Origin: Colwellia sp.
GTDB lineage: Bacteria > Pseudomonadota > Gammaproteobacteria > Enterobacterales > Alteromonadaceae
DNA length: 64,000 nucleotides
Reading direction: 5' to 3'
Assembly: GCA_013215385.1 (NCBI GenBank)
Contig: JABSOY010000015.1
Location: forward strand, 93,373-157,372
Shown here piece by piece: positions 10,903 through 28,086 of this stretch. The notes below the pieces were generated by a model. That model did not search any database. It saw only the letters and a list, made by a program, of their open reading frames with translations, and had not been told where the DNA came from. Positions within the stretch are counted from its first letter, which is position 1, and each line of letters begins with the position of its first letter. Position numbers and translations under genes: made by a program.

Positions 10903-12153
10903 ATGACTACAAATGTACTAATACCAACTGAAGGCGACGCTATTACTTGTGAAAATGGGATATTAACTGTGCCCAATAATCCAATAATCCCTTTTATTGA
11001 AGGAGATGGTATTGGCATTGATGTAACACCACCGATGATAAAGGCAGTAAATGCTGCTGTAGCAAAAGCATATCAAAACGAACGACAAATTCACTGGATG
11101 GAAGTTTATGCTGGTGAAAAAGCGACGCAAAAGTATGACTCTGAAACTTGGTTACCCGATGAAACATTAGAGATGTTCAAACAATATAAAGTCGGCATAA
11201 AAGGGCCTTTAACTACTCCTGTTGGTGGCGGTATGCGCTCTTTAAATGTTGCACTGAGACAAATATTAGATCTTTATGTATGCCAACGACCCGTACAGTG
11301 GTTTACCGGTGTACCTAGCCCGGTAAAAAGACCTTGTGAAGTTGATATGGTTATTTTCCGTGAAAACTCTGAGGATATCTACGCAGGTATTGAGTATAAA
11401 GCGGGTACTGAGCAAGCTAAAAAAGTAATCGACTTTTTAACGCAAGAAATGGGCGTAACGAAAATTCGTTTTACCGAAAACTGTGGTATTGGTATCAAAC
11501 CGGTATCAAAGGAAGGAACAGAGCGTTTAGTTCGAAGAGCTATTCAATATGCTATCGATAACGACCGAGAATCAGTGACGTTAGTGCATAAAGGCAACAT
11601 CATGAAATACACTGAAGGTGCCTTTAAAGAATGGGGTTACCAATTAGCACGAGACGAATTTGGTGCTGACTTTATTGCGGGCGGCCCATGGTGTTCTTTT
11701 GAAAACCCTAAAACGGGTAAAGAAATAGTGATCAAAGATGTTATTGCCGATTCAATGTTGCAACAAATATTATTAAGGCCTGCAGAATACAGCGTAATCG
11801 CCACATTAAACTTGAATGGCGATTATCTATCTGATGCATTAGCGGCTCAAGTTGGCGGCATTGGTATTGCACCAGGTGCTAATATTAATGACGAGATTGC
11901 AATTTTCGAAGCAACGCATGGTACCGCACCAAAATACGCAGGCTTGAACAAAGTTAATCCTGGCTCTGTTATTTTATCAGCTGAGATGATGTTACGACAT
12001 ATGGGCTGGGTTGAAGCCGCAGACTTATTACTTAAAGGTATGTCTGGAGCAATAAACGCTAAAACCGTAACCTATGATTTTGAGCGACTAATGGACGGTG
12101 CAACATTAGTTACTTGTTCAGAGTTTGGTGATTGCATAATTGAACATATGTAA
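10903..12153 (+). CDS. icd: Isocitrate dehydrogenase (NADP+), dimeric type
   Basis: 416 residues, the normal length for the E. coli Icd family of TCA-cycle enzymes. Visible motifs are [32 protein letters not shown] with the regulatory/substrate Ser, [41 protein letters not shown] and [11 protein letters not shown]. It is a second, unrelated-fold enzyme for the same reaction as the gene at 8020. In Colwellia maris the dimeric form is acetate-responsive and more heat-stable while the monomeric form is cold-induced (known); similar division of labour here is inference. Confidence 0.97.
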
Positions 12154-12239: not shown

Positions 12240-14714
12240 CTAGTTAATATTTTCAATCATCAAAATTGCTATATCTGTTAGATCAGTAACTTCACCGATA
12301 CCAATAGTATTTTTTAGTTGAATTTCGAGATCATCAGCAAGGTCTTTATCTAAAGTTTTTAGATAACTTATTTCGTCACGATAATACATATTCTGAACTT
12401 TATCACTTTCTTTTAATTCAACTTTTAGAATTGCAGGTTTTCCATGAGTAGTCACTTTATTTGTATACTCTTGTAATTTCGATGCTTTTTTTAATACTGA
12501 TAAATCTCGATACCAAAACGAGTAATCTTCGCTTTCATTCTTATCTTTGGGTAAGACCAGAATGTAGAATGCACGAGCGGCTAATTTTTTATATGCCAGA
12601 GCAGCGATTATTGATAAACAGGAATCTCTAAACTTTTTATTACTTAACAAATTCAGAATAATCTCTTCACTGTTTTCATTTTTATAAACTAAATGCTTGA
12701 GGGCTGAGTTACCACTAAAGCTAGCGGCATTAATATATTGTTGATGTTTAGTTGCTTTTAAATAGAAGGGGATAGAGAAATGATTATGTGCATAAATATT
12801 TCTCATTGCTTTTTGTAACCCATAAATACGGCTACCTCGTTTACCACAAGCTTCAATGTAATCTACATGCTGATAAATATACTTTCTTATGGCTTTGCAT
12901 GCTAAATGCTTACTTTCAATTGCATTCATTATCAAGCGCACTGCACCATGCTTGTCATAACCTAGAACAAGGTACTTTTGTCGTTTAACTGTGCGAATGT
13001 TATCAATAAAAGGTACTGACAATTCAATTTCAATTTCTTCACCTGCTTTGAATTTTGTCTCCGTTTCTAGCACAACTAATAAACCTTGAACAGAAATATT
13101 TTTAGTTTTCCCCGGGATATGTGTAACGGTATTATTACTTCGAGTTACCGCCATATTGAAATACAAGACGAAACGGTCTTCACATCTTGAGTCATCATTT
13201 TCAGCGGTAACTATTTCAGTTTCAGCAAGGTCATTTATCGTGCGCAACTGGAAACGCTTAGGTAATTGTTTATCGAACTCAGTAATATCAAGACCTACGG
13301 GGTGGTATATAGTTTCATATAAACTGGTGATATCTGATACTGTGATCATATGGTCACAATTACTAATGATATCTAAAGCGGCTTTTGGGATTGCTCTATT
13401 TAACACTGCCATTTTAGGATGAACATGACAAGGTAAAGCCGATGGTACATAGGCATCTTCGGCAGAATTAATAAATGACGACGATATTTTAACAACTTTA
13501 AACAAGCCATTTTTGAAAAACTTATTAAATACGGCTTTAATACTGCGATTATTAATAAAATCTTCGTACCAAATGAGTGAATAGATAAATGTATCTTTAT
13601 TACTCGATTTTAGTATTAGTGCATATTTATCAACCGTATTTCTCTCGTTTAACGCATGTTGAATATCTTTATGGCCAAGTAACACTGGCAAATGAAAGGC
13701 TTCTTGTTCATCACTAAAAAATTGCCATAATTCGTCATTTCCTGAAGTTTTCATTGCAACTTTAGCATGCCAAACATTATCGCTTTTATAACAAAGCAAC
13801 GGGATGTCATGTGTTTTATTTAGATAGAGCTGCTCATAACCTTTAGAGGTAACCGAATCAAATAATGGTTCAATAAACCTTTCTGTAGGACCTATAATGG
13901 CAAGTTTTTTTTGCCTTAAGTAATGAGCAAATAAAACACGCATTTGCTGGTCTGTTAAAGGACTAGAAAATTGTAAAAGGTATTCAAATTTATTATTTAC
14001 CGGAGATTTTTGACTATCAATAATTAAAAAACCAAGCTCAAGTTCATCAGTAAAGTCTATCTCTGCATGATGGTCATACAACCATAAATACACCTTATCT
14101 ACCGATACATTTTCTAATTTACTTGTTGTTTGAATAACCACTTTTTGATTATTCATTTTTTCAATCTTCGCTGTAATACCAACTTCTTTTTTACCTTGCG
14201 TCGTCATACCCATAATAGGGTTCATAAAGACTTTACAAGAAGAATTAAGTATCTTTAATTCCGTTACTATTCTGTTTTTATTAACGAGAGGTTTAGGTTT
14301 GGTTTTATCAATTGTAAATTCAGAAAATACAGTTTCACTACTGCTTTTACCTTTATCTGCAGCTCTTTCTTGAGCGTCTTCATAGACTTCGTGGTATACC
14401 GCTATAGTATATAAGTTTTGGTATTCTAGTAATTTATGATTAAATAATTCTTTAGCTGCACAGTCTAGGTAATGGGTGACATTGTTATGTTTAACCTCTT
14501 CACAATCGGCAAACAGTAAGCGTAAATCAATAGATTTATTCGATTGTTGAGCGAGCTTTTTTATCTCATTTTTAACGGCGAGGTGTTGACTGGAATTTTC
14601 TTCTGGAAGTAGCTTTTTAACGAGGTATTCTAATCTTTCGTTTGCAGCATAAGGAACCAAACTTAAAATTTGTTTTTGAAATCTTTGCAAATTTTCACTG
14701 ATAGCATTGGTCAT
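12240..14714 (-). CDS. Large PilZ-domain protein (c-di-GMP binding)
   Basis: 824 residues. A PilZ signature is visible around residues 505-560: RCEDR (RxxxR form) followed by KNISVQGLLVV (NxSxxG form of the DxSxxG motif), which together bind cyclic di-GMP. Long regions on both sides have no motif I recognise; an N-terminal PilZ-like segment may exist around residues 180-230. The size and build match a large PilZ protein common in Alteromonadales. It would act as a cytoplasmic c-di-GMP effector, possibly in surface behaviour (inference). It converges on icd. Confidence 0.78.
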   Translation of the reverse strand: MTNAISENLQRFQKQILSLVPYAANERLEYLVKKLLPEENSSQHLAVKNEIKKLAQQSNKSIDLRLLFADCEEVKHNNVTHYLDCAAKELFNHKLLEYQNLYTIAVYHEVYEDAQERAADKGKSSSETVFSEFTIDKTKPKPLVNKNRIVTELKILNSSCKVFMNPIMGMTTQGKKEVGITAKIEKMNNQKVVIQTTSKLENVSVDKVYLWLYDHHAEIDFTDELELGFLIIDSQKSPVNNKFEYLLQFSSPLTDQQMRVLFAHYLRQKKLAIIGPTERFIEPLFDSVTSKGYEQLYLNKTHDIPLLCYKSDNVWHAKVAMKTSGNDELWQFFSDEQEAFHLPVLLGHKDIQHALNERNTVDKYALILKSSNKDTFIYSLIWYEDFINNRSIKAVFNKFFKNGLFKVVKISSSFINSAEDAYVPSALPCHVHPKMAVLNRAIPKAALDIISNCDHMITVSDITSLYETIYHPVGLDITEFDKQLPKRFQLRTINDLAETEIVTAENDDSRCEDRFVLYFNMAVTRSNNTVTHIPGKTKNISVQGLLVVLETETKFKAGEEIEIELSVPFIDNIRTVKRQKYLVLGYDKHGAVRLIMNAIESKHLACKAIRKYIYQHVDYIEACGKRGSRIYGLQKAMRNIYAHNHFSIPFYLKATKHQQYINAASFSGNSALKHLVYKNENSEEIILNLLSNKKFRDSCLSIIAALAYKKLAARAFYILVLPKDKNESEDYSFWYRDLSVLKKASKLQEYTNKVTTHGKPAILKVELKESDKVQNMYYRDEISYLKTLDKDLADDLEIQLKNTIGIGEVTDLTDIAILMIENIN

Positions 14715-15162
14715 TAATAATTACATCTCATGTTAAAAGCAGTCATTTTAGGAGAGTAAACTATAAGTTAATTACCTTACAAGCTTAATATTAGTGCATA
14801 TTGGTAGATAAAGACTAAATAAATGTTCTTATATAAGGGGATATTAAAATCAGCGAATGTTAATAGCTTCTTTAGCATCAAGTGAGAGGATATTTGTTTA
14901 CATTCCTATCAATTATCTTAAAACAAACAACAAGTAGAGCGATTGTAGCCATTTTATTGCATTGGATAAATTAGGCGTTTAGGGTAAAGCTTGAAATTAT
15001 TCTGTCTTGAAAGGTGGCTAAGGCTGTATTGAATTTTCACCTATATTTCTAGTTCGATATTGTTCATAGTCTGCCTACCCTAAATCCTAGTTGGATATTA
15101 ATGATAGGCAGTTAAACATATTTTTTACCGGGTCGATTACGTAATCAACGTTATCATTAAAT
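14715..15162. other. Intergenic region, no gene seen
   Basis: About 450 nt without a credible frame. A weak inverted repeat CTGCCTA (15071-15077) / TAGGCAG (15105-15111) lies near the end of the secreted-protein gene and could be part of its terminator. The right portion near 14715-14760 is the leader of the PilZ gene. Confidence 0.4.
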
Positions 15163-15423
15163 CTACTGCTGGCTTTGGCCCGTAGCAGTACAATATAAAA
15201 GCCCATTGTACTGATCAAAGCTAATACCATGTCTAATCGTTGTTACATCAGAGTACTTAGCTCTGAGTTTATATGCAGCATTAGCACAAACTTGATTATG
15301 ATCTGCCGGAGTATGTTGCGACGCCATTACCGATACCGTATGCCACCAGCCATTACTTGCTCCCATAGCAGCAGTAGCAATAACTGTTGCCGATAAGGTA
15401 AGCGCGACTAATAATTTATTCAT
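15163..15423 (-). CDS. Small secreted protein of unknown function
   Basis: 86 residues from the ATG at 15423, preceded by AAGGAAT. The N-terminus is a signal peptide (MNKLLVALTLSATVIATAAM-GA). The mature part of about 65 residues has two Cys (in QVCANAAYKL and LLYCTATG), possibly one disulphide, with an HTPADHNQVCANAAYKLRAK segment. I do not recognise the family. The frame extends 21 codons upstream but without signal-like sequence, so the internal ATG is preferred. It stands alone on its strand. Confidence 0.65.
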   Translation of the reverse strand: MNKLLVALTLSATVIATAAMGASNGWWHTVSVMASQHTPADHNQVCANAAYKLRAKYSDVTTIRHGISFDQYNGLLYCTATGQSQQ

Positions 15424-16022
15424 ATATATTCCTTTATCTACATTAAATTTAATTGACGATGAATCCAAGTATTGCAAATGCAACAACTACCTCAGACAAG
15501 TAAAGTTAACATTTCATTAACAAAAATTCAAATCTAATCAATACTAATAATTTAATCTCACCAATTCTTGTTTTTATTAACAATAAATTCGGTTTTTAGA
15601 ACCACTGCAGTGTAAATAGATATGATAAAACTCATGCTAGTTTGCGTTTTATCATTTGTTGTTTATACAAATTTTAGCGTGGCAGCTGTATCTAGACGAC
15701 CAAATTGAAGTGCTGTAATACAGTGTGATAGCCCTCTTTAGTTCATGAAGAACAGCTTATTGCCGTATGACATGAAAATTATCGTTACTAAGCTATTTAT
15801 GGCTTCGCATCTGTATTTCTACTACTAGCGGTGAGTAAAGGTTGCGTGATTTCGGTGACGTTATAACATTATGTGATTTTACGATGGTTTAAGATGAGTA
15901 GGGTGCCGCTTTAAATTTTTTTGCCATATAACATGGCTAAGTAACTATTTTAATATTTATATATCTTTTGACTAGCTTCATTTTTCTGCGCAATACAAAA
16001 TGGTTTTCAGCAAACCGAAGTT
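15424..16022. other. Long intergenic region with a possible gene relic
   Basis: About 600 nt. From 15620 a plus-strand frame reads MIKLMLVCVLSFVVYTNFSV and then AAVSRRPN before a stop, which looks like a signal peptide cut short. Downstream there is another hydrophobic, lipoprotein-like stretch (FASVFLLLAVSKGC) in a different frame near 15800. This may be a decayed secreted-protein gene; the evidence is too thin for a firm call. Confidence 0.3.
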
Positions 16023-16211
16023 ATGAGTATTGATATTTCTCATGACGATGTTCAGCGAGTGCAACAATTAGCTAATGAATTAAAAGGTAAACAAGTCATT
16101 ACTCCATGTATTTGTAATGCTATAAAAGGTGGTAAAAATGGTGCCTGGCTTTCTCGTTTTATGCCTAAGGGATCGATTATCCAGGCTTTGCCAGATTCAT
16201 TTAAAAGATGA
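16023..16211 (+). CDS. Small protein of unknown function (62 aa)
   Basis: 62 residues, mixed composition, with a central TPCICNAIKGGKNGAWLSRF stretch carrying two Cys and several Gly. No transmembrane segment or signal peptide. It has no strong ribosome site (GAAGTT before ATG) and no family I recognise. It is the first of three consecutive very short plus-strand frames upstream of a tyrosine recombinase. A strong hairpin 40 nt after its stop supports real transcription. Could be spurious. Confidence 0.4.
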   Translation: MSIDISHDDVQRVQQLANELKGKQVITPCICNAIKGGKNGAWLSRFMPKGSIIQALPDSFKR

Positions 16212-16250
16212 ACTTGAATATAGACTAAACATTACATCAATTAATCAACC

Positions 16251-16284
16251 GTGGTGATAGGGCACTTGAATGCCTAATCACCAC
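16251..16284 (+). terminator. Hairpin between two small genes
   Basis: GTGGTGATAGGGCA and TGCCTAATCACCAC pair over 14 positions with two mismatches and a 6-nt loop. It may terminate the 62-aa gene or structure the leader of the next gene. No T-run follows. Confidence 0.5.
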
Positions 16285-16313
16285 TAATCACAAAAAACAT
16301 AAAGGTGTTTATT

Positions 16314-16487
16314 ATGACTAACGTTGATATTACATTTTTAAGAGAGTATTTTGAAATTAAAACCAAGGCTATTGACACTAGATTGTTATGTTTAAAAATG
16401 TGGGAGTCTCATGCATTGATTATTATTTCGAAAATTGACAGTGATATCCCTCGTTCAAATGTTTTTTACCTTCCTTCAGCATTATAA
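16314..16487 (+). CDS. Small protein of unknown function (57 aa)
   Basis: 57 residues from the ATG at 16314, which has a good ribosome site (AAAGGTG, 6 nt upstream). The sequence starts MTNVDITFLREYFEIKTKAI and has a hydrophobic SHALIIISKI core but no clear membrane helix. No family recognised. The good ribosome site is the main argument for expression. Confidence 0.45.
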   Translation: MTNVDITFLREYFEIKTKAIDTRLLCLKMWESHALIIISKIDSDIPRSNVFYLPSAL

Positions 16488-16849
16488 ATATAAAGCATAT
16501 CGGCTTGTGCAGCGCTTGTCGTTGCACTGTCCATGTGATTTATTGATAGAAATGAATGTAAACAGGCCAACTTACTTTTTTTAGTTTAGCGAAGCGAAAA
16601 CTTCTTGGTTCATGCGTTAGTAAATTAGCTTGCGATGTTTAGTGAGTTTATATTCGTTTAGCATTGTATTTCTTCAAGGCCGCACAGTATCTAATTGGTA
16701 CCCGTACATATTTAATGCAGTGCGAATTCATTTATAAAATTTCCCTCAGCCGTCCTGCAAAACTTGTTTTTATCATTTTAATCCCAAAGTAAGTTATTGA
16801 CCTGATTGTTTTTTCTGGAATACTTTAAATTAATTAGAAGTAAATAATA
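16488..16849. other. Intergenic region with a promoter-like sequence
   Basis: No gene seen. TTGACC (16797-16802) and TACTTT (16821-16826) with an 18-nt spacer resemble a sigma-70 promoter just upstream of the 66-aa gene. Confidence 0.4.
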
Positions 16850-17050
16850 ATGAGTACAGCATTCAATTTAAATGACGGTTCAATGAAAAGTTCGGCACAA
16901 GAGTTAAGAGTTAAAGCTGTTCAATCTGCTTTAGTTTTGATTAATACAGCTGTGGCAGATTCTGGCGGTTATCTTAGTGATGCAGCAGATGGTGATTTGA
17001 TTAGCAAACTAGCTGATAAAATTGAAGCTGCTATAAATAACGTAGAATAA
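16850..17050 (+). CDS. Small acidic protein of unknown function (66 aa)
   Basis: 66 residues, acidic and predicted helical: AQELRVKAVQSALVLINTAV and LADKIEAAINNVE. No Cys, signal peptide or membrane segment. It has a plausible promoter upstream (TTGACC/TACTTT) and a perfect 11-bp hairpin 20 nt after its stop, so it looks like an independently transcribed unit. Family not recognised. It lies 137 nt before the recombinase gene. Confidence 0.55.
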   Translation: MSTAFNLNDGSMKSSAQELRVKAVQSALVLINTAVADSGGYLSDAADGDLISKLADKIEAAINNVE

Positions 17051-17187: not shown

Positions 17188-18438
17188 ATGACAGCTATCA
17201 AAAATGAAACATTAACGCCGTTATTTCCAACTTATGTTGAGCTTTGTGAAATGTCACTTGATGAATATCCAAAGCTGGCTAAGTTCCTCACTTCTACAAA
17301 AGAAAGTTATTGGCTGGAACATTGGCATTGGGGAAAATCATTTCTTGAATATACTGGACGTAATAAATCTGTCCACACTTACGATCGGTTTAGAACTGAC
17401 ATTGAACGTTTTATTCTATGGTGCTTTTTAATTAAGAAAACACCGCTCACTGAGTTACGTAAAACTGATATTTTAGAATTTGCTGATTTCTGTTGGCAAC
17501 CACCAATTACTTGGATCGGCTTTAATAACCATGAACGATTTATTATCGAAAATGCGTATTTTGTACCGAACACGCTTTGGCGTCCTTACAAACTTCAAGC
17601 CCCTAAAAGTCAAATAAACAAAGAAATTGATAAGAAAAAATACCGTCCATCACAGCAAACATTAACGTCTACTTTTACAGCACTTATTGTCTTTTATAAC
17701 TATTTAATGAGTGAAGAACTTTGCTTAGGTAATCCAGTACAAATTGCTAAAAAAGACTGCAAACACTTTATTACTGATACTCAAGTAAAAGAAGTTAAAC
17801 GGTTAACCAGTGTTCAGTGGCAATACATGCTTGATATTGCAACTGAAATGGCAGATGAAAGCGCCCTGCATGAACGAAATCTGTTCATTATAGCGGCTCT
17901 TAAAACCTTGTTTTTACGTATTTCTGAATTGTCAGAACGTCCCGCTTGGTCACCAACGATGGGACATTTCTGGCAAGATGACGATGAAAATTGGTGGCTA
18001 AAAATTTATGGTAAAGGCCGTAAACTCCGTGATACTACTGTGCCTACAGACTTTATGCCTTTTCTAGAAAGGTACCGTTTATCCAGAGGACTCTCTTGCT
18101 TACCATATGGTGGTGAAAATACTGTTTTAGTTGAAAAAATACGTGGTCAAGGCGGTATGACAACACGGCATTTAAGGCGACTAGTACAAGAAACTTTTGA
18201 TCATGCATACCAAAGAATGAAAGAAGCTGAAGGTGAAAAAAGAGCCCTTAAATTAAAAGAAGCCTCTAGCCATTGGCTTCGTCATACGGGCGCGAGTATG
18301 GAAATAGAACGCGGCCGAGCTTTGAAAGATCTTTCAGAAGACTTAGGTCATGCCAGTATGGCAACAACCGATACGGTATATGTTCAAACAGAGAATAAGA
18401 AACGAGCAGAGAGTGGTAAAAAAAGAAGTGTAGTATAA
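17188..18438 (+). CDS. Tyrosine recombinase/site-specific integrase
   Basis: 416 residues. The catalytic set is visible: Arg244 (LFLRISELSE), a Lys in YGKGRK (276), HWLR (His362, Arg365), LGH (His388) and Tyr398 (DTVYVQTENKK). Residues 30-200 form an N-terminal SAM-like DNA-binding part. It therefore looks active as a DNA strand-exchange enzyme in the cytoplasm. No att repeats or other mobility genes were found beside it, so the element it would move, if any, is unclear. The three preceding small genes and the sigma/DUF2589 block on the other side of the EAL gene are candidates. Confidence 0.9.
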   Translation: MTAIKNETLTPLFPTYVELCEMSLDEYPKLAKFLTSTKESYWLEHWHWGKSFLEYTGRNKSVHTYDRFRTDIERFILWCFLIKKTPLTELRKTDILEFADFCWQPPITWIGFNNHERFIIENAYFVPNTLWRPYKLQAPKSQINKEIDKKKYRPSQQTLTSTFTALIVFYNYLMSEELCLGNPVQIAKKDCKHFITDTQVKEVKRLTSVQWQYMLDIATEMADESALHERNLFIIAALKTLFLRISELSERPAWSPTMGHFWQDDDENWWLKIYGKGRKLRDTTVPTDFMPFLERYRLSRGLSCLPYGGENTVLVEKIRGQGGMTTRHLRRLVQETFDHAYQRMKEAEGEKRALKLKEASSHWLRHTGASMEIERGRALKDLSEDLGHASMATTDTVYVQTENKKRAESGKKRSVV

Positions 18439-19866: not shown

Positions 19867-20493
19867 TCATATTGCAGATAATTCTTTTTGCTTAATAAGT
19901 TCATCTAATAAGAAAAATATCCTCCGTTTAAAGCGATCTTCTGGAACTTGTCTCCATAGAACCCTACTTTTTAAATTAGCTGTGAATGCTGTTAAATCAT
20001 TTGATGCTAGGATGGGTTGGAGCGACTTCCTACAAGCCGAGGTATAATCACCACGAAAACGTAAATCAATAACAACGGCTTTCATTGCGGCATTAAGCTC
20101 ATGCCAATTAACGATGCCATAGGCTGCTATACAGTCTTCCTTATTACAAATGCGTTTTACATCATTTTCCATCTCTTGATAGCTTAATTTAAATAACTTT
20201 TCTTGGCATTCAATGCTTATTTCTACTTTGGTCAATTGATGGTCTTGAACAAATTGCTCCGCACTTTGCCCGTGCAAACCGCTAGCCGTTGATAATGTGG
20301 TAGCAGTTTCTTGGTTTAGTCCACTTTTTATTAGCTCTTGCTTTATTTTTTGACGGCTTTTTTCTTTCATATCGTATCCACGACCAATAGTTAAGCCAGA
20401 ATTCAGCGAAGGCACATGTAATTTTCGGCTATGATAAGGACCGCCCTCGCTGCCTTCTGCTTCATAGGTTAATAAACCTTTAGTAATTGTCAT
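19867..20493 (-). CDS. Pesticin/T4-lysozyme-like muramidase
   Basis: 208 residues from the ATG at 20493 (GGGAG 8 nt upstream; the frame runs on to 20595 without a better start). The N-terminal part reads TYEAEGSEGGPYHSRKLH and then SGLTIGRGYDM, the arrangement of the pesticin C-terminal/T4 lysozyme-like muramidases: catalytic Glu, then a Thr/Gly-rich TIGxGYD turn. Such enzymes cut the glycan of peptidoglycan. The tail is basic and helical with an FKRRIFFLLDELI end. No signal peptide, so it would need lysis, a holin or another exporter to reach the wall. It is the last gene of the DUF2589 operon. Confidence 0.75.
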   Translation of the reverse strand: MTITKGLLTYEAEGSEGGPYHSRKLHVPSLNSGLTIGRGYDMKEKSRQKIKQELIKSGLNQETATTLSTASGLHGQSAEQFVQDHQLTKVEISIECQEKLFKLSYQEMENDVKRICNKEDCIAAYGIVNWHELNAAMKAVVIDLRFRGDYTSACRKSLQPILASNDLTAFTANLKSRVLWRQVPEDRFKRRIFFLLDELIKQKELSAI

Positions 20494-20609
20494 TCTATGC
20501 ACTCCCTGAGATGATTTATTTACAATAGAGTAATAATTTAATCGGTATTCAATCTTTAAATACACTATGCCAGGCGTTATTCCTGGCTGATGCATTAACT
20601 TTTTAACAC

Positions 20610-20813
20610 CTAATGCGCTAAATTATTTCCTTTTACTTTTTCAAATTCTTTCATCGCATGATTAGCGACCTGATAGCTTGAGTTACTCAGTGAAACTGAA
20701 GTATCGCAGCTAGCGGTTGTGCAACTAAAACTCCCTCCTTTGATTAAAAGCGTGCTATTAATAAATATTTTTCCTGCGCAATTTGGGCATTGAATTTCGC
20801 TGCTATCTTTCAT
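20610..20813 (-). CDS. Small zinc-ribbon-like protein in the DUF2589 operon
   Basis: 67 residues from the ATG at 20813 with AAGGAAG 6-7 nt upstream. It has CPNC near residue 8 and a CTTASC pair about 20 residues later, the spacing of a small treble-clef or zinc ribbon. The C-terminal third is helical (NHAMKEFEKVKG). Family not recognised. It lies between the last DUF2589 gene (60 nt upstream) and the muramidase (116 nt downstream), all on one strand. Confidence 0.65.
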   Translation of the reverse strand: MKDSSEIQCPNCAGKIFINSTLLIKGGSFSCTTASCDTSVSLSNSSYQVANHAMKEFEKVKGNNLAH

Positions 20814-20873
20814 GAGAACTTCCTTAGTAAAAGCTCGACTCAAAGAGCCGAGCATATTTAGTTAAAACTTATA

Positions 20874-21557
20874 TTATTTTTTATCTACTGGTTTATCCGC
20901 ATCATCTCCATTCTTTAGTTGTATAGGGGCAATACATTGCGAGAAGGCTTGGATAATGGTGGTTACTCCTTCGGGTAATGGTAGTTGTCCGGCATGGGCA
21001 TTAATTGTATATTTTGCAGAATTTGACTTCTCATAGTGTGATTTTTCTGATGAAGCCGATTTGCTTGAAGCTGAAACTGAACCACTAACTTCAGCTGAAA
21101 AACAGCCATAGCCAACTTTTGCGCTAAACGAACCTTCTGCCGCTGATTCAGACTCAGTTGATGTCTCTTTATCGTTAGAAAAAGAACTTTTCACCTCCAT
21201 TTCAAAGGTAACGGTTATATCGTCAACAGCTAATGAATTTAGTGGCATAATAGTCATTAATGGCAGTTCAAACTTTGTTTGCACTGGCTCACCAGCTGAT
21301 CCATTCGCGTTAATAACGGAACGTGTTAATGTCATATTAATCATGATTGGATCATAGTTTGTCGTATCTTTAGTACCTCCTTTACCTTTGACAGTCGTTG
21401 TGTTGAAACATGTACTCAATAAAAATTGCGTTTGGGTTATTGCCATTTTGCTGTTAGCTTCAGCACCTGCAAGTAGTGGTGCACTAATTAATGCTTTAAT
21501 TGGTAAACCACTGAATTGTTGTGCCATTGACGCTAAAGCTCTATTGTTATCAACCAT
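20874..21557 (-). CDS. DUF2589 family protein, paralog 4
   Basis: 227 residues of the DUF2589 family (function unknown). The N-terminal helix contains MAQQFSGLPIKALISAPLLA and AITQTQFLLSTCF. A beta-rich middle follows with PIMINMTLTR, LPLMTIMPLNSLAVDDITV and FEMEVKSSF. The C-terminal strand is AKYTINAHAGQLPLPEGVTT then IIQAFSQCI. A Ser/Glu/Ala-rich insertion (about residues 130-175) separates the two halves of the sheet. It is clearly paralogous to the gene at 21914-22543. No signal peptide or membrane helix. Ribosome site AGAGGAAA. Confidence 0.85.
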   Translation of the reverse strand: MVDNNRALASMAQQFSGLPIKALISAPLLAGAEANSKMAITQTQFLLSTCFNTTTVKGKGGTKDTTNYDPIMINMTLTRSVINANGSAGEPVQTKFELPLMTIMPLNSLAVDDITVTFEMEVKSSFSNDKETSTESESAAEGSFSAKVGYGCFSAEVSGSVSASSKSASSEKSHYEKSNSAKYTINAHAGQLPLPEGVTTIIQAFSQCIAPIQLKNGDDADKPVDKK

Positions 21558-21913
21558 TTATATTTCCTCTTTGATTTTACGATTTATATATTAAGTACAA
21601 TAAACACAGTGATTATCGTTGCTTTATATGCACTTTGGGTTAGCGGTAAATACTCATTCTGAACAATTACCGCAGCTTGATTACTGACTACAGAATAAAA
21701 TTGAGCACCTTAGTGCGATATTCACGTAGACAGATTAAGTTCCTTCTTAATTCGGTTATTAATAAAATTTTCGCGCCAAAAAACGATCGGAAATTAAATT
21801 AATATTAAAATTCGACTTATTGTTAAAAAACCCAATGGCTATTTAAAAAAGTAAAGATGTACAGGTGTGTGATTAGTACGAATGAAACTTACTAATGATT
21901 AAACTGACTATTG
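21558..21913. other. Gap inside the DUF2589 operon
   Basis: 356 nt without a gene, unusually long for the operon. It lacks the TTCAC/CGTCT motif found at the three upstream promoters. It may hold a separate promoter or be the kind of gap for which the operon's NusG-like factor is needed; the sequence does not decide. Confidence 0.4.
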
Positions 21914-22543
21914 TTATGTTTCATCAGCTTTTAAGTGTATGGGTACTATCGATTGTGAATATGTTTCGATAATGGTTAATATACCGATTGGAAGTGGTAC
22001 TTGAGCAGCATGTGCACTTATCTCATATTTCGCTGAATTTGATTTTTTAATTGTCGATTTTTGATTGTTATTTACCTGCTCAGTTGAAGCTACAGCCCCT
22101 GATATCTCTGCTGATACCGTGTTGGTATTTAGTTTATGACTAACAGAACGCTCTTCTTTACTGTCAGTAGATTTGTCTAATGAATACGAGCTTTTCACCT
22201 CCATTTCAAAAGAAATATTTACCTCGTCAACGGCCAATGAGTTTAGCGGTATAATAGTTAATAAAGGCAAGTTGAATTCGCTTTCAATAGGCTCTGCTTG
22301 GCTTCCATCCGCATTAAACACAGGGCGAGTTAATGTCATGTTTACCATGACAGGTTTATAAATTTCATTATTGCCAATTTTAACTATTGAAAAACATGTA
22401 TTTAACAAGAACTTAGTCTGAGACATCGCCATCATATTATTGGCTTCTGCTGCAGCTACCAAGGGTGACCCAATAAGTTCTTTCATAGGTAAACCGCTAA
22501 ATTGTTGTGCCATTGTTACTAAATTATTATTTTTATCAGCCAT
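21914..22543 (-). CDS. DUF2589 family protein, paralog 3
   Basis: 209 residues, the same layout as its neighbour: N-terminal MAQQFSGLPMKELIGSPLVA and AMSQTKFLLNTCF, then PVMVNMTLTRPV, FNLPLLTIIPLNSLAVDEVN, FEMEVKSSYS, a polar insertion, and AKYEISAHAAQVPLPIG followed by ILTIIETYSQSI. Excellent ribosome site (AAGGAGGAAAT). The two typical DUF2589 copies are obviously recent relatives. Cytoplasmic by sequence. The role of the family is unknown. Confidence 0.85.
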   Translation of the reverse strand: MADKNNNLVTMAQQFSGLPMKELIGSPLVAAAEANNMMAMSQTKFLLNTCFSIVKIGNNEIYKPVMVNMTLTRPVFNADGSQAEPIESEFNLPLLTIIPLNSLAVDEVNISFEMEVKSSYSLDKSTDSKEERSVSHKLNTNTVSAEISGAVASTEQVNNNQKSTIKKSNSAKYEISAHAAQVPLPIGILTIIETYSQSIVPIHLKADET

Positions 22544-22579
22544 TTATTTCCTCCTTATTTTAAAAACTTATAGTGTTAT

Positions 22580-23176
22580 TTAACCGGGGATTTGAGCCCT
22601 TAGCGCTTTTTCATACCCTTCAATTATTTTTTGTAGTCCTTCTGGTGGCTCATGTCCAACAAGAGATATTTCAATCCTAGTATTTGTACAGTCCTTAGTA
22701 ATCGTATGTTCCCCACCCGTAACTTGCGGCGAACGAAAAGCGACATAGAGTTCATCACTATCATCGGCCGTTACTTCAAGATCGGCCGAAAATTTAACGT
22801 CTTTAATTCTTGGGCTACTGATCGGACATAATGTAATTAATGGTACATTAACAATTGTCGAAGTAACGCCATCTGGACCTTGACTTGGAAAGGCCATCGC
22901 GACCATTTTTGGACGGTAAATTACCTCTCCTTCCGGTGATTGGTGTTCATCAGTGCCTAAATTATTTTCTTTAATATTATTATTTGCTGATTTATCAATC
23001 TCGTCAGCTGGAACATCAATTATATTATTTGAACTACTATTGATATCCGATGGAGATTCAATGGTAACTTTATCGAAAAACTTATCTATGTGCTTAAAAC
23101 CTGCAGATTCAACTGCTTGTGCGGCACTGTGAATGCTTTGTTGGACAGCATGCATTAATGCTTGAAAACGGATCAT
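22580..23176 (-). CDS. Divergent DUF2589-like protein, paralog 2
   Basis: 198 residues. The N-terminus is an amphipathic helix (MHAVQQSIHSAAQAVESAGF) ending in HIDKFFDK, then a Ser/Asn-rich linker. The C-terminal 110 residues repeat the DUF2589 layout: YRPKMVAMAF, NVPLITLCPISSPRIKDV, FSADLEVTADD, and finally RIEISLVGHEPPEGLQK with IIEGYEKAL. I infer common ancestry with the two clear DUF2589 genes from the order and spacing of these blocks; direct identity is low. Confidence 0.65.
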   Translation of the reverse strand: MIRFQALMHAVQQSIHSAAQAVESAGFKHIDKFFDKVTIESPSDINSSSNNIIDVPADEIDKSANNNIKENNLGTDEHQSPEGEVIYRPKMVAMAFPSQGPDGVTSTIVNVPLITLCPISSPRIKDVKFSADLEVTADDSDELYVAFRSPQVTGGEHTITKDCTNTRIEISLVGHEPPEGLQKIIEGYEKALRAQIPG

Positions 23177-23258
23177 GTTATTTTCTTCCTATTAATTTAA
23201 GATTTATGGGTTATTGTTGCTTGAACTGCACTTTTAAGGGCAAGTAAGGCTCATTTTT

Positions 23259-23930
23259 TTAAGAATTTGGACGCAATAGCTCTTTATATTCACTTATGAC
23301 TTTATTTAATTCTTTGAGGTTTTGTTCTGGACTAAATAATATTTTTACCTGAGTGCTGCTTGATTCTTTGGGCTTCCAATTCGACCAAAACTTATTTGTT
23401 TTCTGATGAAAACGTACATAAACTTCGTTTCCCTCACTTTTTACATAATCAAGTTTTGAACTAAAGGTAAACTCTTTAATTGAATGAAGGTATAGCGGCT
23501 CGAAAACGAATAAAGGTATTTCTATCAATTCTTTAAGCCATTTTCCATTTGTATAGACCGGCATCTCAAAAACGGTCATCTTAGGCTGATAATTTGTCGC
23601 CTGATTGTTAGCAGCCTTGATTGATTTTTGCATCGTTTGCTTCATCGTGTTTAGCAAGTTTATTGCGAGAGACTTATCGCCTAAATCAATATAATTTTCC
23701 AATTGGTCTAACTGTTTGTAAAGCGCAGTACCCTGGTTTCTTGATGGCTTTTTATCGAAGTATTTATCAATATAATCAATCTCTAACGATGTTTTAGATG
23801 TATTAACTGCATTAATGTTTTTTTGAATATTTAGTACTAAATCAGAAAAATTAATACTTGTATCAACTTGAGGAGATTTATGGATTAATTTACCAATGAA
23901 CTTTTGGTACACTTTCTTTAAGTAACTCAT
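23259..23930 (-). CDS. Divergent DUF2589-like protein, paralog 1
   Basis: 223 residues. A helical N-terminal half contains IDYIDKYFDK, matching HIDKFFDK of the next gene. The C-terminal half again has the family blocks: YQPKMTVFEMPVY, LIEIPLFVFEPLYLHSIKE, FTFSSKLDYV, then QVKILFSPEQNLKELNKV and ISEYKELLRP. First structural-type gene after the NusG-like gene, 41 nt away, with ribosome site AAAGGTC. No signal peptide. Assignment to the family is inference from pattern. Confidence 0.6.
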   Translation of the reverse strand: MSYLKKVYQKFIGKLIHKSPQVDTSINFSDLVLNIQKNINAVNTSKTSLEIDYIDKYFDKKPSRNQGTALYKQLDQLENYIDLGDKSLAINLLNTMKQTMQKSIKAANNQATNYQPKMTVFEMPVYTNGKWLKELIEIPLFVFEPLYLHSIKEFTFSSKLDYVKSEGNEVYVRFHQKTNKFWSNWKPKESSSTQVKILFSPEQNLKELNKVISEYKELLRPNS

Positions 23931-23971
23931 TTTTTGACCTTTATATAAAAATAGCGATTAAACAAGAGGCG

Positions 23972-24484
23972 TCAGACAATATTTATTTTCTCCATCTGTT
24001 CGACTGGCACATCTAATACCAGTGACATATCCAATTTATTTATTTCAACGGCGACCTTTCCTCTGTAATGACCTTCACAAAGGGTACCCTCGTATCCAGC
24101 TAAAGAGCCTTTAAGTAACTTAACTCGGTCACCCTTAATTAAACGTCTTGAGGTAGTTTCAACGTATTTATTCATTGTCATAATTGATTTTATTAAGGTA
24201 ATCTCTTTGCTTGGAATTATTGTTGGCAAACCACCAAAACGAATAAAATCAACGAAACCGGGTAATACTTTTACTGTGTGAATACCTGAATAATCAAGGT
24301 AAACAAACAGATAAGATTTAAAAAGAGGCATTGTTATTTTTTTTCGTCTGTCACTCCACTGTCTAATTTCTTCGTTGATCGGTAAGTACGCCACTAAGTT
24401 TATTTTTTTTATTGATACCAGTAGCTTTTTTTCACAATTTGGGCTGGTGTATATTACATACCAATGTTTATCATTTTCGTTCAT
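23972..24484 (-). CDS. NusG-like antitermination factor (RfaH/UpxY/LoaP type)
   Basis: 170 residues. The NGN domain begins KHWYVIYTSPNCEKKL, followed by AYLPINEEIRQWSDRRKK and LFKSYLFVYLD. A KOW domain lies at about 120-165 (KGDRVKLLKGSLAGYEGTL). This is the build of specialised NusG paralogs that ride with RNA polymerase through one operon and suppress termination (known for RfaH, UpxY and LoaP). It is the first gene of the DUF2589 operon, preceded by the shared promoter motif at 24606-24631, which is the usual place for an operon-dedicated antiterminator. Confidence 0.88.
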   Translation of the reverse strand: MNENDKHWYVIYTSPNCEKKLLVSIKKINLVAYLPINEEIRQWSDRRKKITMPLFKSYLFVYLDYSGIHTVKVLPGFVDFIRFGGLPTIIPSKEITLIKSIMTMNKYVETTSRRLIKGDRVKLLKGSLAGYEGTLCEGHYRGKVAVEINKLDMSLVLDVPVEQMEKINIV

Positions 24485-24605
24485 TGTTACTTTCCTAAAT
24501 TAAAGATTTAGTTTCGGTTAGAAACGATGTTTATGTTTACTAATATTAAGATAAGCTCCGCCACATCGGCCACAGAGAGTTGATGTTTATTTCTTGTTTA
24601 TTTAA

Positions 24606-24631
24606 AGACGTTTGTATTGAAAATAAGTGAA
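24606..24631 (-). promoter_or_regulatory. Probable ECF-sigma promoter of the NusG-like/DUF2589 operon
   Basis: On the minus strand TTCACTTA, 13 nt, then CGTCT. The same motif with the same spacing occurs upstream of the sigma factor gene (25830-25855) and the peptidoglycan-binding gene (25179-25204). Spacing between the TTCACA-like and CGTCT elements suits ECF sigma promoters. Leader to the start codon is about 120 nt. Confidence 0.65.
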
Positions 24632-24679
24632 TGATTTTTTAGTAAAAATTTTATCTAAATCGTTAGTTATTATGACCAG

Positions 24680-25138
24680 CTAATGATGCCCCGCTGATAA
24701 TGATTCCATAGTCATTTTCATAAAATAGTTATTATTTTTGAATAATAATGATTCTAATTTTTGAATGAGCGTAGCCACCGAAGTCTTTTGTATACAGGCT
24801 AATGTTTTTATATCCATGGTACCTGTAGGAGACAACCCCAGTACTTTTTGTAATGCAATAATGATTTTTGGCGGATCATTGATAAGTGCGTTATTAAACA
24901 AACACTCGGCTAATACTTGACTTGAGATCCTATCTGCTAATAGTAAATTCCATATCTCAAGACAATATAGATCCTTAAAGAGAAGTTCTAATTCACTCGT
25001 AGTGAATAAAGAAGACAAACTATGCCAACATGGGGAATCTTTAAGTACTAACTTTGCGATTAGAGAAGGAGTAAACCTACCTACTTCAATTTTATTAGCA
25101 CCAAAAACCAACTCAATTGCTTGATAATAATCTGCCAT
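24680..25138 (-). CDS. Peptidoglycan-binding-like protein (PG_binding_3/GH108 C-terminal type)
   Basis: 152 residues from the ATG at 25138 (GGAG 6-7 nt upstream; a TTG 4 codons earlier also opens the frame). The region around residues 80-120 reads LAECLFNNALINDPPKIIIA and LQKVLGLSPTGTMDIKTLAC, the pattern of the peptidoglycan-binding domain found at the C-terminus of GH108 lysozyme-like proteins. The N-terminal Glu-Gly-Gly catalytic motif of GH108 enzymes is absent, so it is probably not an enzyme. No signal peptide. It lies between the sigma gene and the antiterminator with its own motif-bearing promoter. Confidence 0.6.
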   Translation of the reverse strand: MADYYQAIELVFGANKIEVGRFTPSLIAKLVLKDSPCWHSLSSLFTTSELELLFKDLYCLEIWNLLLADRISSQVLAECLFNNALINDPPKIIIALQKVLGLSPTGTMDIKTLACIQKTSVATLIQKLESLLFKNNNYFMKMTMESLSAGHH

Positions 25139-25178
25139 CTTTAACTCCAATCTTTGTAATCTTATGTTGTTATTAACT

Positions 25179-25204
25179 AGACGAGCGAGCAGTCAACTTG
25201 TGAA
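25179..25204 (-). promoter_or_regulatory. Probable ECF-sigma promoter of the peptidoglycan-binding gene
   Basis: Minus strand TTCACAAG, 13 nt, CGTCT, ending 40 nt before the ATG at 25138. It matches exactly in spacing, and in 8 of 8 left-box positions, the motif before the sigma gene. Confidence 0.7.
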
Positions 25205-25242
25205 CATTTTTAAAAAATAAATTTTGATATGGCGAATGAAGT

Positions 25243-25797
25243 TTATTCATGCTCAAGTAAATAACGGAGTCTTTGCCGTGCTAACTGAATACGTTTGCGA
25301 ACATTATTTGGAGAAATATTTAATCGACGAGCAATTTCGCTGTATTCTAATTCTTCAAAAAATCGATATTTAATGGGCAGCATTAAATCAATAGGCAATA
25401 TAGAAATTTTCCGCATCAGGAAATTTAACTTTGATTCACGCTCTATTTGTTCTTCTAACTCTTCACTACTATTATCTGAGAAGTAGAATTCGTTAGGCAA
25501 TGCAGACACTTGATTTACTAATTCATACTGTCGAGTCTGTATTCTGTGCATATCGATACATATGTTATAGGCGAGTTTACATAGCCATGGATACATTTTA
25601 ATAACTTGCTCTTGGTCAGATTGGAAATACCTTAATGCTTTCTCACTTGCCAAAGACATAGCGTCATCTGCTTTGTCTTTATCTCCATTAAGCCATTTAA
25701 GGCAGCAGCTATAAATACGATGTCGGTGAGAGCCCCATATTACATAAAAATCATATGCTGGACTTTTGGAAGGTGCTAGGTTTTCAGTTAGATACAT
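25243..25797 (-). CDS. ECF-type RNA polymerase sigma factor
   Basis: 184 residues with sigma region 2 (residues about 20-85: DDAMSLASEKALRYF, YPWLCKLAYNICIDMHR) and region 4 (about 130-180: LPIDLMLPIKYRFFEELEYS then EIARRLNISPNNVRKRIQLA). Regions 1 and 3 are lacking, as in ECF sigma factors. It would direct polymerase to a small regulon. A motif shared with two downstream promoters precedes it, so self-activation is likely. No anti-sigma factor with a membrane helix is encoded nearby. Strong ribosome site (AAGGAAG). Confidence 0.9.
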   Translation of the reverse strand: MYLTENLAPSKSPAYDFYVIWGSHRHRIYSCCLKWLNGDKDKADDAMSLASEKALRYFQSDQEQVIKMYPWLCKLAYNICIDMHRIQTRQYELVNQVSALPNEFYFSDNSSEELEEQIERESKLNFLMRKISILPIDLMLPIKYRFFEELEYSEIARRLNISPNNVRKRIQLARQRLRYLLEHE

Positions 25798-25829
25798 CTT
25801 TTCTTCCTTATAAACGATCAGTAAAGGAA

Positions 25830-25855
25830 AGACGTAGTTGTTAATATCTTGTGAA
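25830..25855 (-). promoter_or_regulatory. Probable autoregulated promoter of the ECF sigma gene
   Basis: Minus strand TTCACAAG, 13 nt, CGTCT. Expected transcription start about 25 nt before the sigma ATG. See the matching sites at 25179-25204 and 24606-24631. Confidence 0.7.
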
Positions 25856-26384: not shown

Positions 26385-27215
26385 TTAATGGATAGGCGAT
26401 ATCTTCAACGCTAGCGCGGGATCTAAACGCACATTTAACCAGTTAATACGCCAGTCTAAGTGTGGCCCAGTTGCGCGACCGCTTGCGCCAACTGCTGCAA
26501 CAACCTGGCCTTTTTTCACTTCGTCACCCTCTTTAACATAAGATTGACTTAAATGCAGGAAGCTTGAAGTAATCCCATGACCATGGTCAATTATCATGGT
26601 GCCACCAGAGTAGAACATGTCAGGTACGAACATAACAACTTTACCAGCAGCTGGAGCTTTAACAGGATCGCCAGTTTTCCCTGCATAGTCTAAACCAAAA
26701 TGTGGTCGTTTAGGCACCCCGTTAAACACACGCTGACTTCCATATACGCCGGTAATAATACCTTTGATTGGTGGAACAAAACCTTGTGAAAAGTCAGTTT
26801 TATTACTCAAGGTTTGCCTTGCTGCTCGTACTTGCATTCCATCTTGCTTAGCACGTGCCACAGCTTTTGGATTTGGGTTCATTATTTTTTTAGCAATACC
26901 TTCAATACGTTGAATTTTATATTCACGTTTAGCCGGTGTTAATGTTTTTACTTCTTTTTTCCCATTTGGGTAAACGATCTGCAATTGATGTGTACCAACA
27001 TCATCTCGACCAAAGCCAAAAACATAATCACCATTAGCTGATAATGGTAACGTGTTACCATCAAAGCTAACAATATTACCGGGTGAAGTCTTACCCACAA
27101 CCAAAGCGCCCTGTTTTATTTCTCCAGACAATTGAATTTCAGCAAGTACCGGTAAACTGCATATAGCACAACTCAAATGGAAAACGAGTAGACTTGTAAT
27201 ACGTTTACTAAACAC
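26385..27215 (-). CDS. Secreted M23-family (LytM) peptidase
   Basis: 276 residues. The N-terminus after the GTG at 27215 is a signal peptide (RITSLLVFHLSCAICSLPVL-AE). The C-terminal M23 domain (about 160-270) has PHFGLDYAG (HxxxD zinc site), IDHGHG, and HLSQSY with GPHLDWR (second zinc and catalytic His). Such enzymes cut peptide cross-links of peptidoglycan in the periplasm. The GTG is chosen because AAGGAG stands 9 nt upstream and it overlaps the stop of the preceding gene (GTGTTTAG), indicating translational coupling. Confidence 0.88.
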   Translation of the reverse strand: MFSKRITSLLVFHLSCAICSLPVLAEIQLSGEIKQGALVVGKTSPGNIVSFDGNTLPLSANGDYVFGFGRDDVGTHQLQIVYPNGKKEVKTLTPAKREYKIQRIEGIAKKIMNPNPKAVARAKQDGMQVRAARQTLSNKTDFSQGFVPPIKGIITGVYGSQRVFNGVPKRPHFGLDYAGKTGDPVKAPAAGKVVMFVPDMFYSGGTMIIDHGHGITSSFLHLSQSYVKEGDEVKKGQVVAAVGASGRATGPHLDWRINWLNVRLDPALALKISPIH

Positions 27216-28086
27216 GGGCAATAGCTCCTTTGCCCACACCTTCAAAGGCAACAATGGTTATTGGTGATTGCAGCTGCGTGTTTAATTGGCGGGCAATAAA
27301 ATCGGCTAAAAGCTCAACGGTTGAATCACAATCAACAACATCCAACACTTTACTCTCTACCGCAATATCAAATCGACCTTGTGGTGCTACGTAAGAAAAA
27401 TATTGGTGATCGGGAGTCAAATTTTGTTGAGCAACATGTGATAGCTCAATCTTAGCTTTATTAACACGATCAGCTTCTGAGGCAATATAAATATCTTGCC
27501 AGCGTAGACACCATTGTTTTTCTAATTCGGCGTTACGCTTTCCTTGTTGTAAAATATGTATGGTCGAGCGATGGCCATGTGCAATTCGTTGACAATTACC
27601 GTCATGCAACTTCAAGCCATGCGTATAGTGATAATAATCACCACTGATATGTTCAGGCCTTAACGTTAGTGTTAATCCCTGAACATTTTCCGGTAATTGC
27701 TCAAGAATAATTGCTGTTAAATGTTTGGTAACTGACTCAATCGTTATTTCGTTCGTTGCAAGTTTTGCAAAAGCACACTTTGGTGATTGTAAAAAGTAGC
27801 TGGCACGATCACTTGTTATATCGACATATTCATGATCTTCATGATGGCTAGAGTCAGTTACTTTAATTAGTGAGTTGTCCATAGGTAATAACAGTTTATG
27901 GTCAACTGCATCATCAATAATGGCTTTGATTTGTTTCTTTACTACAGCGAAATCAAGCACCATACTCATTTCATTTAAGCCACCTTCAAGTAGCACATCA
28001 ACAATCCAACTTTCACCAACAATACCACGTTGCTGACAACAGTAAGAAAAGTCGATCACGGTTAAGTTGTTTACAAATAACTGCAT
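27208..28086 (-). CDS. Tandem PTPS-fold protein (6-pyruvoyl/6-carboxytetrahydropterin synthase family)
   Basis: 292 residues, about twice the size of QueD. The first half keeps the VDHKLLL (DHxxL) motif but its zinc site is lost: where the family has HGHxF there is VGESWI. The second half has the zinc-type motif LHDGNCQRIAHGHRSTIHI and ends STVELLADFIARQL and ITIVAFEGVGKGA, the STExL and catalytic Glu region. So the metal-binding parts appear to be spread over the two halves. It makes or modifies a pterin or deazapurine precursor (inference). Overlaps the M23 gene by 8 nt. Confidence 0.7.
   Translation of the reverse strand: MQLFVNNLTVIDFSYCCQQRGIVGESWIVDVLLEGGLNEMSMVLDFAVVKKQIKAIIDDAVDHKLLLPMDNSLIKVTDSSHHEDHEYVDITSDRASYFLQSPKCAFAKLATNEITIESVTKHLTAIILEQLPENVQGLTLTLRPEHISGDYYHYTHGLKLHDGNCQRIAHGHRSTIHILQQGKRNAELEKQWCLRWQDIYIASEADRVNKAKIELSHVAQQNLTPDHQYFSYVAPQGRFDIAVESKVLDVVDCDSTVELLADFIARQLNTQLQSPITIVAFEGVGKGAIARV

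Follow-up and report, generated by a model that had tools for sequence, protein, structure and literature searches.

A predicted sigma factor and NusG-paralogue control module joined to a DUF2589 cassette and a candidate muramidase in Colwellia sp.

The subject of this report is a block of nine consecutive genes in Colwellia sp. (GenBank assembly GCA_013215385.1), found in a stretch of 64,000 nucleotides of contig JABSOY010000015.1 (forward-strand positions 93,373 to 157,372; hereafter the window, by whose numbering features are given). We read this block as an inserted and self-contained unit in which an extracytoplasmic function (ECF) sigma factor and a specialised NusG paralogue drive a cassette of DUF2589 proteins together with a wall-cutting enzyme in a lysis-linked process, a reading that as a whole we hold with about as much confidence as doubt. 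Its regulatory half is strong as evidence from sequence goes and new in detail, and its payload half is a real conserved cassette whose product or function we infer. The block occupies positions 19867-25797 of the minus strand, on which the parts of the block described below also lie, and its nine open reading frames (ORFs) are all open and follow the order reported in the initial annotation: sigma factor, peptidoglycan (PG)-binding-like protein, NusG paralogue, the DUF2589-type proteins p4 to p7, a zinc-ribbon-like protein, and a muramidase. The ribosome sites described there were also recovered, as a purine-rich stretch resembling such a site lies upstream of all nine genes, the weakest being that of p4.

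It is very likely, judging from the motif described here, that the ECF sigma factor (25243..25797; TIGR02937 2.4e-15, Sigma70_r4_2 4.9e-11) drives the block. The promoter-like motif TTCAC-N16-CGTCT is found upstream of the sigma gene itself (25830..25855), of the PG-binding-like gene (25179..25204), and of the nusG-like gene (24606..24631), and the three matching promoters noted earlier are real, as three exact copies in 64 kb compare with 0.07 expected and none of 100 shuffles reaches three. The entire 5.1-Mb genome contains six copies, comprising the three in the block, one before a paralogous sigma gene, and two inside unrelated genes, and the reversed pattern, used as a control, has three matches genome-wide. 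Because the motif was derived from the window, the paralogous locus and two loci from Enterovibrio serve as independent tests. The paralogous sigma factor is 57% identical to that of the block, and its gene adjoins the only other NusG paralogue that our search found in the genome (59% identity). The sigma factors of the Enterovibrio loci, L071 and L073, are related to that of the block (41% identity), and TTCAC-N16-CGTC occurs five times in these loci (shuffle mean 0.42, maximum 2 in 60), each time upstream of a block gene: before nusG and the p4-like gene in L073, before p7 at each of the two loci, and, in L071, also upstream of the PG-like gene. Altered spacings of 14, 17, and 18 give no copies in these two loci, and a spacing of 15 gives three, at other places. 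Only once the strict matches had been seen was its first base relaxed to [ATG], and the paralogous locus has one strict and four relaxed matches. Another motif, TAACCGAA, is not above chance (4 copies versus 1.96 expected, with 10 of 100 shuffles reaching 4). What the sequence indicates, then, is an autoregulated promoter common to the target genes, as is characteristic of ECF regulons. The sigma family is rare, with the Colwellia genome standing alone among 394 in the sample of its order at E<=1e-25 (eight candidates scored per genome). The earlier proposal that the sigma factor switches on the block thus finds support in a motif that is nearly confined to such loci and recurs in another genus, and the sigma factor would recognise TTCAC-N16-CGTC(T) to switch on its own gene, the PG-like gene, and the nusG-led operon.

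The product of the first gene of that operon (23972..24484) had been called a NusG/RfaH-like factor, and this is borne out by its score against the NCBIfam UpxY model (NF033644; 7.5e-35, 120.3 bits versus a cut-off of 100). It also has a candidate loading site. PF02357 is over its cut-off, KOW is below it, and the RfaH model TIGR01955 gives 71.2 bits versus a cut-off of 144.5; although not filed as RfaH, the protein may work like it. The candidate loading site, the ops-like element GATGTGGCGGAGC (24555..24567), lies in the leader of nusG, after the promoter and ahead of the gene start, and includes the mini-hairpin core GCGGAGC. Written as the 13-mer GATGTGGCGRAGC, it has five copies in the genome, all at the two sigma-nusG loci (reversed control, none): one in the nusG leader of the block, one in the leader of the paralogous nusG, and three in the leader between the paralogous nusG and a sulfatase gene. 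As the 13-mer was defined from these same sites, the genome scan tests only its absence elsewhere. In being a leader element specific to the presumed targets and downstream of a promoter, it has what is expected of an ops-type site. At the paralogous locus, the relaxed promoter motif [AG]TCAC-N16-CGTC and then the ops-like element occur in repeated units of ~200 bp; this motif is found upstream of the copy in the nusG leader and of two of the three copies before the sulfatase gene. This locus (L153 4037-8765; C12:163200-172200 of the same genome), with its leader repeats before the sulfatase-family gene, is probably another operon under the control of a sigma-nusG module of this type. Among other loci with a related nusG, L068 and L069 carry TGGCGGAGC just upstream of this gene, and an AraC-type gene lies upstream in both (by Pfam in L068 and by eye in L069). 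L069 has two copies of TGGCGGAGC, in a repeat that spans the nusG start, and its nusG-leader repeat (6596-7046) includes an apparently decayed copy of the nusG start.

The arrangement resembles that of RfaH and ops in its specialised NusG paralogue and its short, G+C-rich leader element downstream of a promoter. It differs in that the gene for the factor belongs to the very operon that the factor presumably targets and is coupled to an ECF sigma factor, and in that the loop of the element is of the GNA type (GCGRAGC) rather than the GNNA type of the E. coli ops loop, which we take to be GGTA. The core of the element, GCGNAGC, is the sequence of a published GNA-loop mini-hairpin. That work describes GNA or GNNA loops closed by at least two G-C pairs as very stable DNA mini-hairpins, with GCGAAGC melting at 78 C (PMC4686876). 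The ops element of E. coli forms a hairpin on the non-template strand over bases G2-C9, and the authors raise the question of whether hairpins that differ in their loop bases attract other factors (PMC11001881); the mini-hairpin here is a candidate only. How operon-encoded NusG paralogues are recruited is termed unknown in a further paper (PMC7593976). Because its core matches a mini-hairpin known to be very stable, GATGTGGCGGAGC is a candidate recruitment site for such a paralogue. A polymerase starting from the nusG promoter would pass the element, whose non-template strand could form the GNA-loop mini-hairpin, and the NusG paralogue would load there as RfaH does at ops and sustain transcription over the ~4.7 kb to the muramidase gene. 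The resulting picture of an operon-encoded antiterminator with its own loading site is supported by the locus specificity of the element. UpxY of Bacteroides capsule operons, TaA, and LoaP offer a further comparison: the factor passes the UpxY cut-off and its gene is part of the operon on which it probably acts, whereas the block contains neither capsule nor polyketide genes and here a candidate recruitment site is found. The literature searched held nothing on point about an ECF sigma factor paired with a NusG paralogue or RfaH.

The payload of this operon would be a widespread cassette in which a zinc-ribbon protein accompanies DUF2589 proteins of the short and long types. Of the four proteins originally assigned to the DUF2589 type, three pass the curated PF11655 cut-off, namely the short-type p5 (22580..23176; 6.2e-12), the long-type second copy p6 (21914..22543; 3.5e-28), and the main long-type protein p7 (20874..21557; 7.9e-28); the fourth, p4 (23259..23930), has no Pfam DUF2589 match and was placed as a divergent short-type member by profile comparison only (hhalign probability 99.8, E 9.5e-28 versus the short family). 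The long and short types are themselves homologous by profile comparison (probability 96.4). The zinc-ribbon-like protein of 67 residues (20610..20813) was recognised by eye from its CxxC ... Cx4C pattern and has no family over cut-off. DUF2589 is uncommon, being found in 7 of 299 genomes of the phylum sample, 23 of 394 of the order sample, and 1 of 6 of the genus, with the Colwellia genome counted in each. When genomes from 84,980 species were scanned, 306 pattern stretches were obtained, 280 of which encode relatives, and the best 80 loci were kept. By their record titles, these span Pseudomonadota, Bacteroidota, Myxococcota, Acidobacteriota, Planctomycetota, and others, with p7 relatives of up to 87% identity. 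Once the near-duplicates L074, L136, and L128 were dropped, a p7-type gene was present (phmmer E<=1e-3) in 77 of 77 loci, a p5-type gene in 73, and the zinc ribbon in 70. The conserved unit is the combination of short DUF2589, long DUF2589, and zinc ribbon, and it occurs in several phyla. In 24 more distant DUF2589 loci (L043-L066), the zinc ribbon is present in 3, and a protein of ~92 residues takes its place in 13 (L043-L045 and L050-L059); by eye, this family seems also to occur in viral contigs (L164 10630-10920, L169 10687-10968). The Vibrio plasmids L043 and L044 carry DUF2589 pairs and are annotated with toxin-like gene names. A search for p5 relatives in plasmids gave none. The term PF11655 was not found in the open-access literature searched, and DUF2589 appears in a single paper there, most subscription papers lying outside this search.

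The cassette also has a recurrent RNA feature. Directly after p7 lies a stem-loop of nine pairs (20833..20853), and in 49 of the 77 loci the 70 nt that follow the main long gene have a more stable fold than shuffled sequences (z<-2). The corresponding counts are 7 of 123 for the tails of other DUF2589 genes, 11 of 69 for those of the zinc-ribbon gene, and 7 of 76 for the sequence upstream of p7. The difference between the p7 tail and other DUF2589 genes has a Mann-Whitney p of 1e-17, a value that is optimistic because the loci are related. Most of the stem-loop tails looked at are without a long U run, so a role in processing or stabilising the transcript, or in partial termination, fits best. 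Rfam gave no match in the two loci scanned, and a simple terminator scan was not clearly above chance (6 versus 4.3 +/- 2.0). A stem-loop in this position suggests that p7 may be made in excess over the downstream products, like a structural subunit.

Outside this cassette, the composition of the loci is far less constant, and the proposal that the nine genes form one co-conserved system did not survive the count of co-occurrence that had been named beforehand as its refutation. Among the 77 loci, nusG is present in 5, all of which are among the 7 closest (of the two others, the sequence of L067 starts 472 bases upstream of the cassette, and L072 also has no nusG seen); p4 was seen only in those 7, in L071 and L073 by alignment alone (18-19% identity); orthologous sigma and PG-like genes occur in 2, with a third, weak sigma match in L141; and the pesticin-like muramidase gene occurs in none. 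Because these genes are rare beside the cassette, the nine-gene set is a lineage-specific composite around a wide core. Such a composite might have arisen if the sigma-nusG pair were a mobile module for regulation that had come to lie next to a DUF2589 cassette older than itself and a muramidase of no relation, giving common control without common function. The pairing of the paralogous module with a sulfatase gene, the rarity of the sigma family, the lack of the pesticin-like gene from related loci, and the AraC-type gene at the sigma position in L068 and L069 would all fit this explanation, but Enterovibrio has the same motif before nusG, the p4-like gene, and p7 and upstream of the PG-like gene, and muramidases of the GH25 family are enriched beside cassettes; we consider it unlikely.

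The last gene of the block encodes a pesticin/T4-lysozyme-like muramidase of 208 residues (19867..20493). From the sequence, we judge 20493 and 20813 to be the better start positions of the muramidase and zinc-ribbon genes, respectively. The muramidase falls just under the Pfam Pesticin cut-off (2.9e-5; 24.5 versus 25.8 bits) but is similar to an annotated pesticin C-terminus-like muramidase (9e-18), with a match of 4e-5 to another annotated member. E13, T35, and D41 are invariant in four aligned sequences and presumably form the catalytic triad. Among the original gene labels, those of the sigma factor, the NusG-like protein, and three DUF2589 proteins hold over their cut-offs, and those of the muramidase and the PG-binding-like protein (24680..25138; PG_binding_1 E 0.07, below cut-off, with homologues in the two Enterovibrio loci) are less secure, the latter being a weak call. 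GH25 muramidases were found within 3 kb of 8 of the 80 cassettes, compared with ~0.065 expected from 26 GH25 genes in 50 host genomes of 256 Mb (0.041 for those 50). The 50 control genomes include all eight positive loci, for which the fair count is 8 of 80; the eight contain two related pairs, L123/L128 and L085/L086, with L128 restored to this count. The earlier idea of a muramidase that opens the wall for the DUF2589 proteins gains support insofar as a family of wall-cutting enzymes is found next to such cassettes far more often than by chance. Neighbours picked by eye include other wall enzymes (GH24, Tlde1, MltA, and an N-acetylmuramidase), as well as C58 peptidases (L069, L140), a trypsin-like protease, a protein of the extracellular contractile injection system (eCIS) core, and a gene that by eye is NUDIX-like. 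The tie of the cassette to GH25 is real and its tie to other wall enzymes looser, and what the cassette builds or does we infer: it may work with a peptidoglycan-cutting enzyme whose family differs by lineage.

A different role for the muramidase would be that of an effector of the type VI secretion system (T6SS), with the DUF2589 and zinc-ribbon proteins carrying or delivering it and other cassettes serving other effectors. In its favour, relatives of the muramidase lie near T6SS-type genes and the Colwellia genome has two matches to the VipB/TssC family of T6SS sheath proteins, away from the block. Relatives were found in 14 plasmid records, and the surroundings were read for three: on a Thioclava plasmid the relative lies in a T6SS cluster and adjoins an LprI-family lysozyme inhibitor, on a Pseudoalteromonas plasmid it is near PAAR, RHS, and immunity genes, and on an E. 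coli plasmid it is upstream of a DUF1311 gene. In the last of these (L263 4755-5974), the gene is annotated as a 'calcium sensor EFh' and contains a pesticin-like region, and it and the DUF1311 gene are likely an effector-immunity pair. The C58 peptidases, trypsin-like protease, Tlde1, and eCIS-core protein beside other cassettes would also suit effector delivery. To our knowledge, however, GH25, MltA, and phage endolysins are not typical T6SS cargo. No inhibitor-size ORF or T6SS marker was found beside the muramidase in the ORF list, a search confined to the surroundings of the block, and pairs of short and long DUF2589 genes in viral late regions fit poorly with a T6SS. One published T6SS effector is pesticin-like and has its own immunity protein, and effectors of this VgrG3cp type from V. 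cholerae share a pesticin-type domain and conserved acidic residues with the muramidase (PMC9927483). They differ from the muramidase of the window in that the latter is stand-alone, with no VgrG or PAAR fusion and no neighbouring immunity gene seen. Taken together, we regard an effector role for the block as doubtful.

Viral relatives hint at a link between the cassette and lysis. IMG/VR contigs with DUF2589 relatives number 58 (L162-L219) and fall into several groups, and 55 of them have the short and long pair. The pair of L175 is part of a late region that also encodes a terminase and an endolysin (PHROG matches); a GH24-type endolysin lies within 2 kb in 6 of the 58, L169 has an adjacent endolysin of another family, and the same search found no such endolysin in the remaining contigs. 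PHROGs has no family for the two L175 DUF2589 proteins scanned. A pesticin-like query found no relative in viral contigs, and in GenBank phages the p6 query had no match and three of four viral queries matched one short faecal record. The viral pairs follow tail-fibre-like genes (by eye) in one contig group and lie in late regions of others, a placement also expected if the DUF2589 proteins were domesticated virion or tail-associated proteins with a remnant or housekeeping role unrelated to the wall. The conserved partners, added zinc ribbon, and stem-loop across phyla argue instead for an active cellular role, making domestication of this kind improbable. The block as such was rejected as a remnant of a prophage or gene transfer agent (GTA), as PHROGs matches were to sigma and antiterminator families and only weakly to structural ones (p4 to a tail fibre, E 0.023). 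Phage lysis modules, GTAs, and tailocins, as generally understood, also place a wall enzyme beside proteins without export signals, and DUF2589 pairs lie near endolysins in some viral contigs, but no capsid, tail, terminase, or holin gene was recognised in the block. The reported lack of signal peptides on the DUF2589 proteins and the muramidase agrees with our hydrophobicity scan, which found no signal- or transmembrane-like segment in the nine proteins (maximum 19-residue Kyte-Doolittle mean 1.29) and is not the output of a signal-peptide program. Lysis-type release, as the initial annotation had suggested, is a plausible outcome. An assembly made by the cassette most likely must pass through the cell wall or open it, and the viral pairs near endolysins suggest that this probably happens late and in connection with lysis. 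In L073 a lysozyme gene, and in L071 and L073 the PG-like genes, are each followed by a gene for a small protein with one hydrophobic stretch (L071 11845-12683; L073 6607-7620 and 11777-12598); these proteins are alike by eye and may be holin-like.

In its broadest form, our reading would make short and long DUF2589 with the zinc ribbon an undescribed apparatus for crossing the envelope or for release, present in many phyla, ribbonless in some phages, paired with a wall-cutting enzyme particular to each lineage, and here run by a sigma factor and a NusG paralogue, with the GNA mini-hairpin as the loading site of the latter and as a second class of ops; this we offer as a tentative possibility. 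In addition to the composite nature of the nine-gene set, a number of observations weigh against the self-contained unit proposed at the outset. On the regulatory side, the sigma motif was not found before p7 in the window, unlike in Enterovibrio, neither Enterovibrio locus yielded the ops-like element despite having sigma and nusG genes, and TGGCGAAGC also occurs inside the p6 coding sequence of L069 and L070. ViennaRNA with DNA parameters predicts a hairpin for ops and none for the GNA version, and for the hairpin we therefore rely on the chemistry literature. On the payload side, assembly by the DUF2589 proteins rests on indirect signs. The AlphaFold2 model of p7 is weak (predicted local distance difference test [pLDDT] 67, predicted template modelling score [pTM] 0.48; for p5, 80 and 0.56), and Foldseek with the p7 and p5 models found no solved structure in the PDB at E<=0.001; in BFVD, the p5 model matched one unnamed viral protein (1.3e-4). 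The viral relatives are only 25-33% identical and almost absent from GenBank phages, and no holin-like protein was found in the block of the window, which has no transmembrane segment by hydrophobicity. Of 20 neighbours scanned, 5 are wall-active or glycosidase-like, 3 belong to other families, 2 matched weakly, and 10 had no match, a rate that is biased because these neighbours, like those scanned at the sulfatase locus, were chosen by eye; given the matchless half and the other families, the neighbour slot is not reserved for wall enzymes.

The genomic surroundings suggest that the block was inserted, as DUF2589 was found in none of the five congeners examined. In three of these, orthologues of the integrase (17188-18438) and of an M23-like gene (26385-27254, by eye) lie ~90 bp apart, with no match between them to the pesticin-like, p7, nusG, sigma, or EAL-like genes; in the other two, the stretch compared did not contain the integrase orthologue. 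Mobilisation by the neighbouring integrase was rejected, as three of the five congener stretches have the orthologue of this integrase but not the block. On the other side of the integrase, three ORFs (12240-17050) between it and an IDH-like gene (10903-12153, by eye) have no tblastn match in the three congener stretches, which makes both flanks of the integrase appear to be sites of insertion. A defensive role, which had been raised as possible, drew no support from PADLOC, whose single weak match among the nine proteins has an E of 0.013, and anti-phage defence was rejected.

The 13-bp element confined to the two paralogue loci is a concrete candidate for how operon-encoded NusG paralogues find their targets, and a GNA-type element would extend the concept of ops beyond GNNA loops to those of the GNA type. 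For DUF2589, the fixed partners, the frequent stem-loop, and the statistical tie to a peptidoglycan-cutting family provide a functional lead. Two questions, the targeting of NusG paralogues and the function of DUF2589, thereby become testable.

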